From a bacterium (GTDB lineage: Bacteria > Armatimonadota > Zipacnadia > Zipacnadales > UBA11051), in contig JAUVVY010000036.1 of assembly GCA_030604405.1 (NCBI GenBank), forward strand, positions 1 through 42,266: a stretch of DNA of 42,266 bases, read 5' to 3'. The translations under genes were made by a program, and so were the position numbers. The first letter of the stretch is position 1. The number at the start of each line of letters is the position of its first letter. The notes beneath the pieces are model-generated. The model had not been told where the DNA came from and did no database searches. It was given only the letters and a program-made list of their open reading frames with translations. Shown here piece after piece: positions 90-35,121 of this stretch.

Positions 90-191
90 GGAGGGGCCGC
101 ATACGAGGCGGAAGCGCAGCTTCCGCCGAGAATCCGGCCCAGCCGTTAACAGCATTTGCATAACTACAGTCGAAGCCCGAGCTACGCGTTG
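90..191 (+). repeat. Partial copy (right half) of the ~330-bp hairpin element, copy A
   Basis: This begins with the GGAGGGGCC edge at 90-98, has a perfect 9-bp inner hairpin (107-115 pairing with 119-127, loop GCA) and closes with CGGCCC at 135-140. A tail at 154-191 matches the right end of the complete copy at 28578-28906 almost base for base, from ATTTGCATAACTACAG through CTACGCGTTG. The left half would lie before base 1 if the element is full length. It ends about 15 bp from the cooC stop codon, so it sits in the 3' region of the CODH/ACS transcript. Confidence 0.6.
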
Positions 192-12724: not shown

Positions 12725-14242
12725 TTAGTGCGTAGCTCCGCCCAGCGCGTGCATAACACTTCGCGCAGCCGTGTCCAGCAGCGGATAGGCGGCCTGGGGA
12801 TACAGCCCCAGCAGTACACATAGAGCGGCCAGCAGTATCATAGGGATGAGCAATGCGGCCGGCGCTTCCTTGACATTAGCCAAAGAATCGTCATCGCACT
12901 CACCCCAAAAGACCCGATAGGCGGCGTGCGCCATGCAAGCCAGAGTCAGCAGACTGGTGATAATGCCAATGACCGCTGCCCATAGCAGCCGTTGTTCGGC
13001 CACGGCGATAAAGAGCGTCAATTTACTCATAAAGCCGTTGAGCAGCGGGACTCCGCCCATTGCCAGAGCGCCGATGAAAAAGCAAGTTGCCGTGATCGGC
13101 ATTTTCTTGCCCAGGCCACCCAGGCGGCTGATGGCGCGCATGCCGCCGGTTGTGTACATAATCGCGCCTACCGACATAAACAGCAGCGCCTTGAAGAGTG
13201 TGTGATTGAGCAAGTGAAAAAGGCCGCCGTAGATGCCCAGGTACGTCCCCAGGGCCAGCCCTTCGACGACATAGCCCATCTGGCTGACGCTGTGATAGGC
13301 CAGGAGCCGCTTGAGATCATCCTGTGCCCAGGCCATGAATATGGCCAACAACATGCCTACGGAGGCCAGTATAGCCACGAAAACGACGATCGCGTGGTAG
13401 TGAGGCGCCAGGACCGTTATTGTGCGGGTGAGGGCGTAGGCTCCCACCTTGATAACCACGCCCGACAACAAGGCACTTATCGGTGTCGGCGCTTCGGCAT
13501 GAGCGTCTGGTAGCCAGGCATGGAACGGCATCAATCCGGCCTTGGTGCCGAAGCCGACTACGAAGAATGCCGCGGCGAGCAAAGCCAAGTTCACCGGAAG
13601 CTTGTCGGCGATTTGGCCCAGTGAGGTCAACAGTAACGCTTCCGACCCCGGCAGGACTTGCAGGCCCGCGACATATAGCAGGATGAAACCAAGCAGCGCA
13701 AAGGTGATGCCCACGCCGACTAGAATCAGGTACTTGTACGCCGCCTCCAGTGTCTCGCGCCGCCAATAGAAAATAAGCAGAAGCGCCGTCGCCAGTGTGG
13801 TGGCCTCCACCGAGAGGTACAGCAGGATCATATGATTGGCAGCGCACGTCAGACTTAGCGCTCCCAGGAACATGAGCAGTAGTCCGTAGTAAAGGTTGAG
13901 CTTGCGGGGCGTTCTTTGCTCTTCGGGCAAATGCTGGGGGATATAACGCAGAGAATAGGGAATGACGACGATGACCATAAGGCAGCCGAGAAGCACCATC
14001 AAGGCGCTCAGTCCGTCCACGTACAGCAGCCTACCCCAGCCAGTCAGTACGTGGCCGGCCATGGCCTCCTGCGCAACTTGGACAGCTATAGCGCCCGTGG
14101 CCAGCGCCCCCACAAACGCCAGCAGCTCTCGGCACCATCTGCAGGTTGGCCCGGCCAGCAATATGATCGCGCCGAACGCAATCGGCACCACGAAAACTAA
14201 CACAGGCAGCGGCGACGCTATTGTCGTAACTAACTCATTCAT
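12725..14242 (-). CDS. hyfF: Hydrogenase-4 membrane subunit F, antiporter-like
   Basis: This 505-residue polytopic membrane protein belongs to the NuoL/M/N and MrpA/D antiporter-like family and is a candidate ion-translocating channel of the hydrogenase. Hydrophobic segments run almost throughout. Key charged residues expected within membrane helices are present: Glu146 (LYLSVEATT), Lys234 (FGTKAGLMPFHAWLPDAH) and Lys265 (VVIKVGAY). It is one of three such subunits here, which marks the complex as the larger hydrogenase-4 type rather than hydrogenase-3. Assignment as F rather than D rests on the HAWLPDAHAEAPTP segment and its place between hyfE and hyfI, as in hyf operons. Confidence 0.85.
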   Translation of the reverse strand: MNELVTTIASPLPVLVFVVPIAFGAIILLAGPTCRWCRELLAFVGALATGAIAVQVAQEAMAGHVLTGWGRLLYVDGLSALMVLLGCLMVIVVIPYSLRYIPQHLPEEQRTPRKLNLYYGLLLMFLGALSLTCAANHMILLYLSVEATTLATALLLIFYWRRETLEAAYKYLILVGVGITFALLGFILLYVAGLQVLPGSEALLLTSLGQIADKLPVNLALLAAAFFVVGFGTKAGLMPFHAWLPDAHAEAPTPISALLSGVVIKVGAYALTRTITVLAPHYHAIVVFVAILASVGMLLAIFMAWAQDDLKRLLAYHSVSQMGYVVEGLALGTYLGIYGGLFHLLNHTLFKALLFMSVGAIMYTTGGMRAISRLGGLGKKMPITATCFFIGALAMGGVPLLNGFMSKLTLFIAVAEQRLLWAAVIGIITSLLTLACMAHAAYRVFWGECDDDSLANVKEAPAALLIPMILLAALCVLLGLYPQAAYPLLDTAARSVMHALGGATH

Positions 14243-14300
14243 GCTCTCAACTCAGCACGCACAAACGCGCATCATGGCACAGCGAAGTTTATGTTCTTAC

Positions 14301-14981
14301 CTATCGCCTCAACCGCGATAGTGTGGTTACGTCCGTGGTTCCCATCAGTCGGTATATTCCGGCGGTGAGATAGAGCAGTAGCCACGCCAAGACTATTACG
14401 TTTGTCGTCACGCCCACTATCGTCGTCTCTGGCACCGTTGGCGCCAGGCTCAACAGCGTCAGATGGACTCCGTTTTCCATCAGGATAATCCCGATTACCA
14501 GCTTGATTGCGTCCCGCCTTACGGCCAGCACGTAGAGGCCCAGAGCGATCACTGTGAAAGCAATCGCCCAGCCGGTTAGCGCCGGTTCGGCGGCCGCCCC
14601 TGCCCCCGGGGCGACGAAGCCCAGGTACCCATGCAGGAAGCGATAGAACCCTACCAGAGCTATGGCTACCACGATAATTGACCATTGCAGCCCCACTATG
14701 GGCCGTGTTTCCCGCGGCGGCAGCTCATTGGAGTAGTGCCACAGCAGCAGCGGGATGAGTGCAACCTTAGTAAGTACGCAGACGGCAGCCCACAGGTACA
14801 GGTGTGGTGTTCCGGTCGCGTAGCCAACCGTTGCAAAGATCGCGGCCAGCAGCGCAGACTGAATCATCAACCACATAATGGCGCACTTGAGGTGTCCAAC
14901 CTCAGCCGCGGCCAGTGACGCGATCAGATGAGCCGCCATCAACGAAACAAGCTGGCTATTGTGTGCCAGTACGTCCTCCAT
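14301..14981 (-). CDS. hyfE: Hydrogenase-4 membrane subunit E, NuoK-like
   Basis: A 226-residue membrane protein made of about seven hydrophobic segments, matching HyfE (216 residues in E. coli), which corresponds to a fusion including a NuoK/MrpC-like part. The C-terminal stretch with KLVIGIILMENGVHLTLL is the NuoK-like region with an intramembrane Glu. AGAGGT lies 4 nt before the ATG. It lies between hyfC and hyfF, the same relative order as the E-F pair of E. coli. Presence of this subunit, absent from hydrogenase-3, supports the hydrogenase-4 identification. Confidence 0.85.
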   Translation of the reverse strand: MEDVLAHNSQLVSLMAAHLIASLAAAEVGHLKCAIMWLMIQSALLAAIFATVGYATGTPHLYLWAAVCVLTKVALIPLLLWHYSNELPPRETRPIVGLQWSIIVVAIALVGFYRFLHGYLGFVAPGAGAAAEPALTGWAIAFTVIALGLYVLAVRRDAIKLVIGIILMENGVHLTLLSLAPTVPETTIVGVTTNVIVLAWLLLYLTAGIYRLMGTTDVTTLSRLRR

Positions 14982-15069
14982 TGTGACCTCTTCTCGCAGA
15001 GTAGGAGCTCATGGGCCCCTGAGACCGTTTGAAGCCGTTGTATGCGCTGCGGCTCTTCGCTCGAGTATA

Positions 15070-19846: not shown

Positions 19847-19874
19847 GGTCAGTCCACCACTCTAATCTCGCGTA

Positions 19875-19923
19875 TGTCGGGCTTCCAGCCCGACATTTTT
19901 GGCGACAGGCGAGACGCCTGTCG
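19875..19923. repeat. Double palindromic repeat between hyfD and hyfB
   Basis: Two hairpins lie side by side. TGTCGGGCT/AGCCCGACA (19875-19883 with 19887-19895) is followed by five Ts on the plus strand, and CGACAGGCG/CGCCTGTCG spans about 19903-19923. On the minus strand, the direction of transcription, the T-run becomes As, so this is not a terminator for the hydrogenase operon. The first palindrome recurs inside moaA at 34624-34642. Such sequences are dispersed repeats in several GC-rich environmental phyla. Confidence 0.65.
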
Positions 19924-28547: not shown

Positions 28548-28577
28548 CACAACTCCCGCGCCCACTGACTACGCCCA

Positions 28578-28906
28578 GTCGGGAGTTCTACAGTAGTTAT
28601 GCAGATTCTTGGTTTGTGACCGGCGCACGCCTGATCGTAGGCGATGGCGGGATGATAAGCCGTGGGCCGGATGGGGACCCCACCCACGCCTTGGGGCGTG
28701 GGTTACCCCCATTCGGCCCCTCCGGAAGGCTACGGCAGTAGCAAGTAGCTGTTGCCGTCAGGAGGGGCCGAATGGGGATGAGAGTTTCGAAGAAACTCAA
28801 AGGGGCCCCCATCCGGCCCAAGGCGCATCACAGTACCAGCGCCTACAATTACAGATGCGATGAGCCACAGACCAGAGATTTGCATAACTACAGTAGAAAG
28901 CCCGAC
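28578..28906. repeat. Complete ~330-bp inverted-repeat hairpin element, copy B
   Basis: The 29-bp ends (28578-28606 and 28878-28906) are inverted repeats agreeing at 25 of 29 positions and begin GTCGGG. Inside are two opposed modules. Module 1 (28664-28723, minus) and module 2 (28761-28819, plus) each have a 13-bp outer stem (GGGCCGAATGGGG type, one G/T pair) and an inner hairpin. The inner stems are unrelated: CCCACGCC/GGCGTGGG at 28683-28702 and GAGTTTC/GAAACTC at 28782-28798. The element fills the convergent gap between the TiaS-like gene and acs. It has no coding capacity. Confidence 0.75.
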
Positions 28907-29029
28907 CTACGCGTTGACCAATAATGCGGGCTGGGCAGTGGCCAGTTGCTCTGCCTGCTGCGGTTACCCCACAAGCTTTAGCAGACTCGCCTGAGCGCCC
29001 GGCGATTCGTGGCTTGGTGGCGGAGTTTC

Positions 29030-32827: not shown

Positions 32828-33748
32828 CTAATCAGCCAAGACCTGTGTCAAGTCGCCCGGTCGGAGGGTGCCGGGCTGGACGACCCGCACAAAAATGCCC
32901 TCCCGGGGCATTACGCAGTCGCCCAGTTGGCGGCCGATCTCGCAGGGCGACTCGCATTGCTTGCCGATCTGGGTAACTGCACCGACCGCCGAAGCGCCCA
33001 GCAGCAGGTGAGTTCCAATAGGCAACGAGGGCAGCTCCAGGCCCTCGGTGGTGATGTTTTCAGCAAAGTCGCCGGGCCCGACTTCCAGGCCCCGCGCCCG
33101 GACGGTGGCGATGCTCTCATTCGCCAGCAGGCTCACCTGGCGCAGACCGGGCCCGGCATGGGCATCGCCGCGGACGCCCGAATCAGTCTCCAGCGTTATT
33201 TCTTCAACGTTGTGCTTCCTGGTGCCCCTTTGCTCGCTGAGCGAAACAGCCACCACCCGACCAACGCCATCAGCTTGCCAGCAGCCGCTGCGACCGCCCA
33301 CCTTAGTCAGCAGCCGGACGTGTCGTATCTCCGCCGCGCGATCCATGCCTTTGCACATATCATACACAGTCAAGGCAGCAACGCTTGCCGCAGTCAGCGC
33401 CTCCATCTCCACCCCGGTCCTGGCGACAGCCGTAGCGACAGCCTGGATGCAGACGCGCCCCAGGGACGGGATCGGTGTGAGGTTGACCTCGACATGGGTC
33501 AAGGACACGCTGTGACACAGAGGCAGCAGTTGCGGAGTTTGCTTGGCCGCCATGATGCCGGCCAGCCGGGCGGTCGCTGTCACGTCGCCTTTGGGGAGTT
33601 GGCCGCTGAGGATGCGCTCGATGGTGTCTGGCGCGAGCCTCACCTCGGCGGCCGCCGTCGCACGCCGCTGGCTTGGCTCTTTGTTGGTAACATCAACCAT
33701 GCGTATGTCTGCGGCTGATGTTGGCTGCTCGGAATCTGTGTCCGACAT
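32828..33748 (-). CDS. moaC: MoaC-MOSC fusion protein, molybdenum cofactor synthesis
   Basis: The 306-residue protein joins MoaC, which makes cyclic pyranopterin monophosphate from the MoaA product, to a MOSC domain, a fold associated with sulfur and Moco handling. MoaC motifs are KGDV (about 53-56), LPLCHS (76-80), GVEMEALTAASVAAL (112-126), MCK (131-133) and KVGGRSG (149-155). The MOSC part begins near residue 160 and has GVRGDAHAG and FAENITTEGLEL. The start at 33748 has GAAGG 8 nt upstream; a reading to 34021 runs through the upstream hairpin element and is rejected. It is the last gene of the Moco operon. MoaC-MOSC fusions are known elsewhere. Confidence 0.92.
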   Translation of the reverse strand: MSDTDSEQPTSAADIRMVDVTNKEPSQRRATAAAEVRLAPDTIERILSGQLPKGDVTATARLAGIMAAKQTPQLLPLCHSVSLTHVEVNLTPIPSLGRVCIQAVATAVARTGVEMEALTAASVAALTVYDMCKGMDRAAEIRHVRLLTKVGGRSGCWQADGVGRVVAVSLSEQRGTRKHNVEEITLETDSGVRGDAHAGPGLRQVSLLANESIATVRARGLEVGPGDFAENITTEGLELPSLPIGTHLLLGASAVGAVTQIGKQCESPCEIGRQLGDCVMPREGIFVRVVQPGTLRPGDLTQVLAD

Positions 33749-33768
33749 GATGTACCTTCTCCCATCGT

Positions 33769-34098
33769 GTGGGGCTGGAACAGTGGTTATGCGAATCTTG
33801 CGGCGATTCGGGTCTGAGTATGAAGAGATGGAACCGGTGTGACCTACGTGTACGAAAGGAGGGGCCGCGTCGAGTTGCGGTCGTCGCAGACGACCGCAAG
33901 GAGCCCGGCCCGCGCAGGACGCTATCCTGGCGAGGTCTCCACACCCAAACGGCCAACGACAACAGCTGGGCTGGCCTTGTGAGCTTTGCTCTGCAAAGCT
34001 CCCTGTGACAGGCCCCTCCATTACGACTTGCGGCTACAAGCCATCACCCCGCAAGCAGAAGTACCCAAGATCTACACAACCACAGTAGCAGCCTGACC
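33769..34098. repeat. Complete ~330-bp inverted-repeat hairpin element, copy C
   Basis: The ends (33769-33797 and 34070-34098) are inverted repeats agreeing at 20 of 29 positions and related to those of copy B (28578-28906), whose length is almost identical. It contains two GGAGGGGCC modules facing each other: plus at 33858-33911 with a perfect 10-bp inner stem (33876-33885 with 33889-33898), and minus at 33973-34019 with a perfect 9-bp inner stem (33981-33989 with 33993-34001). Inner-stem sequences are unrelated to those of copies A and B. It fills the gap between moaA and moaC in the Moco operon and would be transcribed. Confidence 0.7.
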
Positions 34099-34113
34099 GA
34101 CGCGACAAGGCCA

Positions 34114-35121
34114 CTAGCCGCCGACACGACACATGGCGGGGCCGCCAGTCCACTGTCCGGTCAGGTGCGCTCCCTGCGCCGGTTTCGCGGCCACTGCCTC
34201 TCGCAGTGCCTCGGCGATAGCGGGCCCGGGCCGCGGCGCTGCCAAAGCCGGCCGCAGATCAATCTCCGTATTGTCGGTAAGACACGGGCGGAGCGTGCCA
34301 TCGGAGGTCAGTCTGAGCCGGTTGCACGAGGGGCAGGGCGGATTCGTCAGCGACGAGATGATGCCAACCGTTCCGCGGCCCAGGCGCCATACTTGAGCCG
34401 GCCCCGGGCCTGGTCTATCCTCCCGGTGCAAGCGGTCTGTCCGAAGCTGCCGGAGCACTTCTGCCGCAGGATAAAAGAGAGGGCCCGCCTGCGATGCCGC
34501 AGGACCGGCCGGCAGCACTTCGATGAAGCGCACGTGCAGCGCCCGGTCTCGGGCTAACTCAGCAAACTGGACTATTTCGCAGTCATTGTACCCGCGCACC
34601 AGAACGACGTTGATCTTAGTGGTGTCGGGCTGGAAGCCCGACCCACGCTGGGCAGAGATCGGCCGCAAGCTTGCGCTCTGCGCGCTCTCTATTCCCGCCC
34701 ATACACGCTCGAGGCTGCCGCCTCCGGTCAGCGAGCAATATGTCTCGGCATCCAGGCTGTCGAGGCTGATATTCACGCGCTGCAGGCCGGCGCAGGCCAG
34801 TTCGGCAGCACGCTCAGCCAACAACTGGCCGTTAGTAGTCATAGACAGGTCGTCAATCTCCGGTATGGCACTCAGCTTCCGTACCAGCATCTCCAGACCG
34901 GCGCGCATCAGCGGCTCACCGCCGGTCAGGCGTACGTGACTGACGCCCAGCTCACCGGCCACGCGGGCCACGGTTGCGATCTCGTCGCAACTCAATTCTT
35001 CGCACGGGGTTTCGCTTCGCGGGCAGTCTGACGGCCGGCAGTATATGCAGTGCAGGTTGCACTTGCTGGTAACCGAAATCCGCAGATAATCTATTCGCCG
35101 TCCGAAGCGATCAATCAGCAT
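34114..35121 (-). CDS. moaA: GTP 3',8-cyclase, radical SAM enzyme of Moco synthesis
   Basis: MoaA converts GTP to 3',8-cH2GTP, the first step of molybdopterin synthesis. The radical-SAM cluster cysteines are Cys21, Cys25 and Cys28 (SKCNLHCIYC), the C-terminal cluster set is seen in PPCPSCNRLRL and LRPCL, and the protein ends in the double glycine needed for activity. At 335 residues it is normal length, but residues about 156-168 (SAQRGSGFQPDTT) are extra relative to the family and are encoded by a palindromic repeat at 34624-34642. The start codon overlaps the mogA stop as TAATG. Confidence 0.95.
   Translation of the reverse strand: MLIDRFGRRIDYLRISVTSKCNLHCIYCRPSDCPRSETPCEELSCDEIATVARVAGELGVSHVRLTGGEPLMRAGLEMLVRKLSAIPEIDDLSMTTNGQLLAERAAELACAGLQRVNISLDSLDAETYCSLTGGGSLERVWAGIESAQSASLRPISAQRGSGFQPDTTKINVVLVRGYNDCEIVQFAELARDRALHVRFIEVLPAGPAASQAGPLFYPAAEVLRQLRTDRLHREDRPGPGPAQVWRLGRGTVGIISSLTNPPCPSCNRLRLTSDGTLRPCLTDNTEIDLRPALAAPRPGPAIAEALREAVAAKPAQGAHLTGQWTGGPAMCRVGG
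34624..34642. repeat. Palindromic repeat inserted in frame within moaA
   Basis: GTCGGGCT (34624-34631) pairs perfectly with AGCCCGAC (34635-34642) around a GGA loop. The same palindrome, in the opposite orientation, lies between hyfD and hyfB at 19876-19894. In moaA it encodes the GSGFQPD segment, placed between LRPI and KINVV, which are adjacent in typical MoaA proteins. The reading frame stays open. Confidence 0.75.

Follow-up and report, generated by a model that had tools for sequence, protein, structure and literature searches.

In E. coli, the REP sequence y is built as GTAG-GCCGGAT...ATCCGGC, with a lower stem that resembles that of the palindromic modules considered here. These modules also have in common with it the tag at the foot, the obligatory mismatch and the non-specific upper stem, and differ from it by the tag itself (GTAG in E. 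coli) and by the phylum in which they occur. For E. coli TnpA_REP, the upper stem and loop can be swapped for their complement and their removal abolishes binding, and the bulge must be unpaired, a C within it being contacted by the protein (PMC8266576). Detailed in vitro analysis of such RAYT-REP recognition is so far limited to a few systems of Proteobacteria. More generally, in the REP/REPIN-RAYT systems, i.e. the REPtrons, a 5' tetranucleotide directly precedes a GC-rich imperfect hairpin with a kept mismatch and a C on its 3' side, the repeats reach hundreds of copies and form head-to-head and tail-to-tail pairs, and cognate hairpins flank a Y1/HUH gene related to 4er8 (PMC2817692, PMC3686654, PMC6006769, PMC8266576). 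All these traits recur in the modules; unlike the REPtrons, which have a GT[AG]G tag, the modules are tagged GGAG, their upper stems are hypervariable within one genome, their loops show a preference for C(GNA)G and many of them lie inside a MITE. The GTAG- and CGTC-tagged palindromic repeats are likewise tagged palindromes found in dimers, some families having self-complementary variable inner regions as is the case here (PMC3733652), whereas the modules have another tag, an outer stem fixed class-wide and an inner stem that is almost free.

Regarding the carrier, IS701-family MITEs are short and non-coding, create short target duplications and have the same inverted ends as an autonomous IS. 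The elements reported here are likewise short and non-coding, with ends found on an IS as well, and exact short duplications are seen in part of them; they differ from these MITEs in targeting the apex of a REP hairpin and in having another REP-like family as payload. Insertion specific to REP palindromes is known for members of the IS3 (IS1397/ISKpn1, ISPsy8), IS110 (IS621/ISPpu9/ISPa11), IS4 (ISRm22), IS256 (ISRm5) and IS5 (ISNm1106) families (PMC1525189), a survey of REP-targeting IS in which the IS701 family has no occurrence; here, MITEs share this target preference. A literature search among openly accessible papers returned no match for the combination described below. Very probably, the repeats in the window, that is the whole stretch of 42,266 nucleotides analysed here, are MITEs with IS701-type ends, inserted in the apices of GTRG-REP hairpins and carrying GGAG-tagged REP-like hairpins cognate to one RAYT clade. 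Most likely, they represent a variation on the REP/RAYT theme, for which IS701-type MITEs serve in part as carriers, and not a separate category.

Elements and modules in the window

The window corresponds to contig C81 of a Candidatus Zipacnadia (Armatimonadota) genome of 4.37 Mb (96 contigs, 96.9% complete), which belongs to a little-studied bacterial class. The first-pass annotation, made from the sequence of the window, had described two complete copies and one partial copy of an element with related inverted ends, together holding five modules edged by GGAGGGGCC and GGCC(C), and all of these were located in place. The edges given to the complete copies were about 12 bp too wide at each end, the surplus being halves of GTRG-REP hairpins, i.e. 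of the target site. The core of copy 1 (28590..28894, + strand, 305 bp), a MITE-like element bounded by ACAGTAGTTATGC and GCATAACTACAGT, starts with the left terminal inverted repeat (28590..28606, +) and stops with the right one, ATTTGCATAACTACAGT (28878..28894, +). It contains two GGAG-tagged hairpins of the GAATGG type, namely hairpin 1 (28664..28723, -), with the inner stem ACCCACGCC/GGCGTGGGT, and hairpin 2 (28761..28819, +), with the inner stem GAGTTTC/GAAACTC and the loop GAA. The core of copy 2, also MITE-like (33780..34086, +, 307 bp), contains hairpin 3 of the GCGTCGA type (33858..33911, +; inner stem TTGCGGTCGTC/GACGACCGCAA, loop GCA) and hairpin 4 of the TGTC.CAG type (33968..34019, -; inner stem GAGCTTTGC/GCAAAGCTC). 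In the partial copy, hairpin 5 of the GCATAC type (90..140, +; inner stem GGCGGAAGC/GCTTCCGCC, loop GCA) precedes a right terminal inverted repeat (154..170, +); this copy may have been truncated by the end of the contig, since the first base of the window is also that of the contig. Over the five modules, the loops have the 3-4 nt first reported and the perfect inner stems, then put at 7-10 bp, range from 7 to 11 bp. The modules occur in both orientations and one window copy lies between convergent genes; the intergenic position of the modules was examined for the window copies.

Two further features of the window touch on these copies. At the contig start, upstream of the third copy, positions 1-53 hold another palindrome, GTGGTGGGGCATGCCCCACTACACC. 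Besides, a mechanically called ORF (32828-34021, -) encoding MoaC (from residue 108) and MOSC runs some 80-90 codons upstream into copy 2; its true start probably lies downstream of copy 2, the other option being an N-terminal extension supplied by the element. The vicinity of Moco and Wood-Ljungdahl genes, pointed out in the first-pass annotation, is incidental given the copy number of the family.

Probable IS701-type MITEs and their REP targets

The family extends well beyond the window and its abundance far exceeds chance, so that the check for further copies set by the first-pass annotation was passed. With copy 1 as BLAST query, more than 80 matches were obtained in its own genome, where the 15-nt element end occurs at 99 sites, as opposed to 11 with the reversed pattern. 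From three genomes of the genus, 43 distinct MITE-like elements with the inverted ends ACTGTAGTTATGCARAT were collected, each spanning ACTGTAGTTATGCA to TGCATAACTACAGT with at most 3 mismatches (from stretches of the window's genome, G000, and of G001 and G002, plus one from G034). These elements measure about 200-470 bp (199-472 bp), have no transposase inside and contain modules in variable number and order; among the class genomes compared, the exact terminal inverted repeat is confined to the genus of the window.

The target is apparent from the flanks, as a REP half stands on both sides in 37 of the 43 elements, reading GTRG(G/C)TCGGGCT-TTCC or TCC-AGCCCGA. In the window, copy 1 lies between a degenerate left half, CCAGTCGGGAGTTCT (28569..28589, +), and a right half delimited by flank comparison (28895..28914, -; reverse complement GTAGGTCGGGCTTTCT, REP match at 28900-28910); copy 2 is followed by a degenerate right half, AGCAGCCTGACCGACGCG (34087..34104, -), and the right end of the partial copy adjoins a REP half (171..189, -; reverse complement GTAGCTCGGGCTTCG). 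Exact target duplications of 3-4 bp (GGA/TCC, TTCT, GGAA and others) were seen in 14 of the 43 elements, those of the rest being eroded or ambiguous. Intact hairpins of the target kind number 190 in the genome and 0 in the control. Two of them are in the window, one with the GTRG tag, GTGGGTCGGGCTTCCAGCCCGA (34625..34646, -), which is an unoccupied site of the kind the elements enter, and one with a variant tag, GTATGTCGGGCTTCCAGCCCGA (19872..19893, +). The target hairpin has the GTRG tag of REPs and adjoins the single gene for a Y1 transposase in this genome. This gene, L148 (G000:C2, ~14000-15000), is next to GTGGGTCGGGCTTTCCAGCCCGA REPs and to a tandem array of units of about 30 bp, CGGCGCGGTACAAGCCCGCGCCCTACAACA.

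The first-pass annotation had found no transposase and no class to which the element could belong, and both statements hold for the window taken alone. Elsewhere in the genome, many contigs start or stop within a sequence that bears an element-type end, TTTGCATAACTACAGT, some 100 bp into it, with two kinds of edge, one coding for a C-terminus (REKLRALIKIYETTNDIDQVFAAAGCA) and the other for an N-terminus (MANTGLNAATFNAELAKD), the signature of a collapsed multicopy insertion sequence. The IS body is absent from the assembly, all 14 matches of its end lying at contig ends. A 16-nt end is common to the MITEs and to this IS; as expected of MITEs, the elements have their inverted ends in common with an autonomous element of their own genome. 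The IS has the same target as well, 23 of 23 sequenced flanks beginning with a 3-nt loop remnant and AGCCC. When the 27-residue C-terminus of the IS was used as query, one relative was retrieved in the class, G017:C93, 50% identical, a full-length element from the same order, where a 404-aa ORF lies between ACTGTAGTCATGCGTTTT and its inverse. There is strong support for placing this relative in the IS701 family, its transposase scoring 186 bits against NCBIfam NF033540 (IS701; cut-off 150) with a Pfam DDE_5 match. A search of the class with this transposase gave no further copy, and a scan of viral contigs gave no junction of terminal inverted repeat and REP. It is not clear from the flanks of the relative that it occupies a REP. 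For the partner IS of the window's genome, the IS701 assignment is inferential, as the link consists of these 27 C-terminal residues at 50% identity and of the two ends. The element ends match a known insertion sequence family, IS701, an outcome that the first annotation had listed as counting against its own proposal, and in this respect the elements can be classified.

On these grounds, the MITEs would be mobilised in trans by an IS701-family transposase, which would insert them at the apex, 3-4 nt long, of GTRG-REP hairpins (GTRG.TCGGGCT-TTCC/TCC-AGCCCGA). As cargo they carry one to a few REP-like hairpins, each tagged GGAG on the 5' side; the lower stem, GGGCC(G)/(C)GGCCC, is fixed, whereas the upper stem can have any sequence provided that it pairs. 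It is extremely improbable that the modules are instead independent small elements inserted by the same IS701 transposase; the variation of their number and order within elements would fit, yet the module edges are unlike the MITE ends and modules occur where these ends are absent.

Pairing, mismatch and loops of the GGAG-tagged hairpins

The first reading of the five modules, namely unrelated inner stems with preserved pairing, extends to a set of 22 distinct modules of one type aligned without gaps. In this set, the outer stem is invariant, 8 of the 11 inner pairs have changed on both sides and the inner helix is 94.6% paired, with a covariation score of 0.341 compared to 0.117 +/- 0.014 after shuffling and at most 0.096 for slid partners. 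The covariation of the inner stem is thus real and exceeds background, as the initial annotation had proposed to verify. Strong covariation alone is, as a warning, no evidence of an RNA. A regulatory RNA or structured leader, whereby modules are transcribed and maintained for their RNA structure, was one of the two proposals made at the outset, and the strength of the covariation speaks for it, as does the kept A.C mismatch described below, which would be a G.U on the strand opposite to the tag. Over 161 stems, departures from inner-stem pairing amount to 18 G.T and 16 A.C; as both are equally rare, the wobble pattern of an RNA is absent from both strands. No module matched an Rfam model at the gathering threshold, and modules are found in both orientations, with one copy between convergent genes and others on the flanks of RAYT genes.

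The mismatch and the loop point the same way. In the G-N-AT/AT-C-C types, which make up one large subfamily, the base after GGGCCG (position 7) faces a C, as A.C in 75 cases, C.C in 37 and paired in 2, i.e. it is kept unpaired in 112 of 114, and the 37 C.C cases are unpaired on both strands. Among distinct inner triloops read on the tag strand, GNA outnumbers TNC by 36 to 3, always closed by C-G, with a p-value of 4e-8 that is optimistic because related cores are not fully independent. C(GNA)G forms an unusually stable DNA mini-hairpin. The equal G.T and A.C departures and the 36:3 polarity of C(GNA)G triloops on the tag strand point to a constraint acting on single-stranded DNA and not on RNA. 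With wobble symmetry, C.C mismatches and a loop polarity of DNA type, the RNA reading was rejected and is rated highly improbable.

Identical arms were also observed with mutually reverse-complement loops (ATT/AAT, GCA/TGC, AG/CT, GAA/TTC, ACT/AGT), which suggests that hairpin inversion or template switching is active too, and that part of the covariation may stem from either. Taken further, inner-stem variation could be neutral, template switching copying one arm onto the other so that pairing is kept by mutation rather than by selection. Such loops are a mark of hairpin inversion and the symmetry of the rare mismatches agrees with this account, but a process expected to repair mismatches has left position 7 unpaired in nearly all modules of the subfamily, free inversion would not yield the excess of GNA loops on the tag strand, and neither the lower stem nor the tag has drifted; this account is rated unlikely. 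Edges that stay fixed, a mismatch that persists and an upper stem that varies while remaining paired, as in the modules, are what the recognition mode established for TnpA_REP predicts (PMC8266576). Altogether, there is support for the first proposal of a mobile element that lacks a transposase of its own and has structured cargo, the constraint being on pairing rather than on sequence.

Distribution across the class and association with a RAYT clade

Modules of the form GGAGGGGCC-N25-55-GGCCC number 217 in the window's genome against 7 for the control. The stricter pattern GGAGGGGCCG-N25-50-CGGCCC is present in 37 of 46 class genomes, some of which have one or two matches and do not exceed their control; the copies number 132 in the window's genome, 174 in G017 (the maximum), 160 in G010, 135 in G033 and 112 in G045, the reversed control giving mostly 0-5 per genome and per strand. 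As GC-rich imperfect palindromes that can fold as a single strand and reach high copy numbers, the modules have the general properties of REPs. They are nevertheless named REP-like and not canonical REPs, because their tag, GGAG, misses the published definition, GT[AG]G at the hairpin foot. GGAG does not occur in the main texts of PMC3733652, PMC6006769, PMC8266576, PMC2817692 and PMC3686654. A BIME-like array in one class genome is made of alternating pairs of GGAG hairpins, repeated in tandem about every 159 bp (L094, G045:C134 74-937).

Regarding their relation to the MITE, 37 of the 119 testable modules of the window's genome are bracketed by MITE ends, 38 have one end nearby and 44 have none. 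In other genera, 2 of 99 modules are bracketed, shuffled ends bracketing 0-1. With a terminal inverted repeat exact in the genus only and ends nearly absent elsewhere, the modules are more widespread than the MITE and their origin is probably earlier.

Genes for Y1_Tnp (PF01797) were found in 34 of the 46 class genomes, HUH motifs being present in nearly all Y1 rows. Inspection of 47 Y1 genes showed 10 enclosed by GGAG modules that read inward and 17 with a module at most 600 bp away, the fixed limit by which a gene was counted as flanked; a generous background expectation is 2.7 of 39 Y1 genes with a module nearby. In a tree of 43 rows (L337 and some others left out), the flanked genes that could be used, 16 in all, account for 16 of the 20 rows of a single clade (support 89/95) and for 0 of the 23 rows outside (Fisher 2e-8), and 3 of the remaining four RAYTs of the clade are flanked by GGAG hairpins with other stems. 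For one RAYT of the clade, the best match among solved structures is E. coli TnpA_REP, 4er8 (E 1.1e-12). As read by eye, module types track RAYT subgroups: those of the kind seen in copy 1 (GAATGG/GCATGG) stand near L318, L338 and L351, and those of the kind seen in copy 2 (G.GTCGA- or TG.CGAAG-like) near L350, L355 and L359.

From this association, one clade of Y1/HUH transposases of the TnpA_REP type (RAYTs) in the class would have the GGAG hairpins as its cognate repeats. The RAYT would bind and cleave the GGAG strand as folded single-stranded DNA, reading the tag, the lower stem and the mismatch, while the upper stem would support the fold, in line with measurements on E. coli TnpA_REP (PMC8266576); in the window's genome, the IS701-type MITEs would offer a second route for hairpin spread. 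A RAYT of the GGAG clade was not found in this assembly (96.9% complete), whose only Y1 gene belongs to another clade. Either MITEs may at present be the main means by which the modules spread in this genome, or the assembly may lack the gene. The GTRG RAYT, tried as partner of the GGAG modules, was discarded, since this sole Y1 gene adjoins GTRG REPs and falls outside the GGAG clade. The modules might be looked upon as mere passengers of the IS701-type MITEs in this genome, with no role for a RAYT; the missing gene, the 37 of 119 modules between two MITE ends and the 38 beside one are in keeping with this, but 44 of the 119 have no end nearby, modules are found class-wide, including in genomes devoid of MITE ends, and G001 and G002, of the same genus, have RAYT genes between GGAG hairpins, which makes the passenger role doubtful.

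Under the cognate-repeat reading, it is somewhat favoured that an entire RAYT clade has shifted to a GGAG tag and recognises in its hairpins the tag, the lower stem and the mismatch, and that the IS701-type MITEs of one genus act as a second vehicle, which homes to the hairpin apices of the competing REP system, tagged GTRG. If true, with recognition limited to these three features, the upper stems would have diversified widely under the constraints of pairing and of the GNA loop. The modules then form a natural counterpart to the in vitro mutagenesis of E. coli TnpA_REP, with hundreds of copies across the class in which tag, lower stem and mismatch are fixed and the upper stem is varied yet paired, and a RAYT clade is available for testing alongside these natural hairpin variants. 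It is also suggested that the tag repertoire is broader than GTAG/GTGG, CGTC and CnGA, that entire clades are overlooked when REPs are sought by the GTRG tag alone, and that two REP systems of one genome can nest via REP-targeting IS.

Besides, the RAYTs L335, L347 and L316 are flanked by GGAG-AGGCGGGA, GGAG-GGGCGGGA and GGAG-CGGCCGGGC, respectively, i.e. by quite different stems; as GGAG is combined there with other stems, the tag may predate the GGGCC stem.
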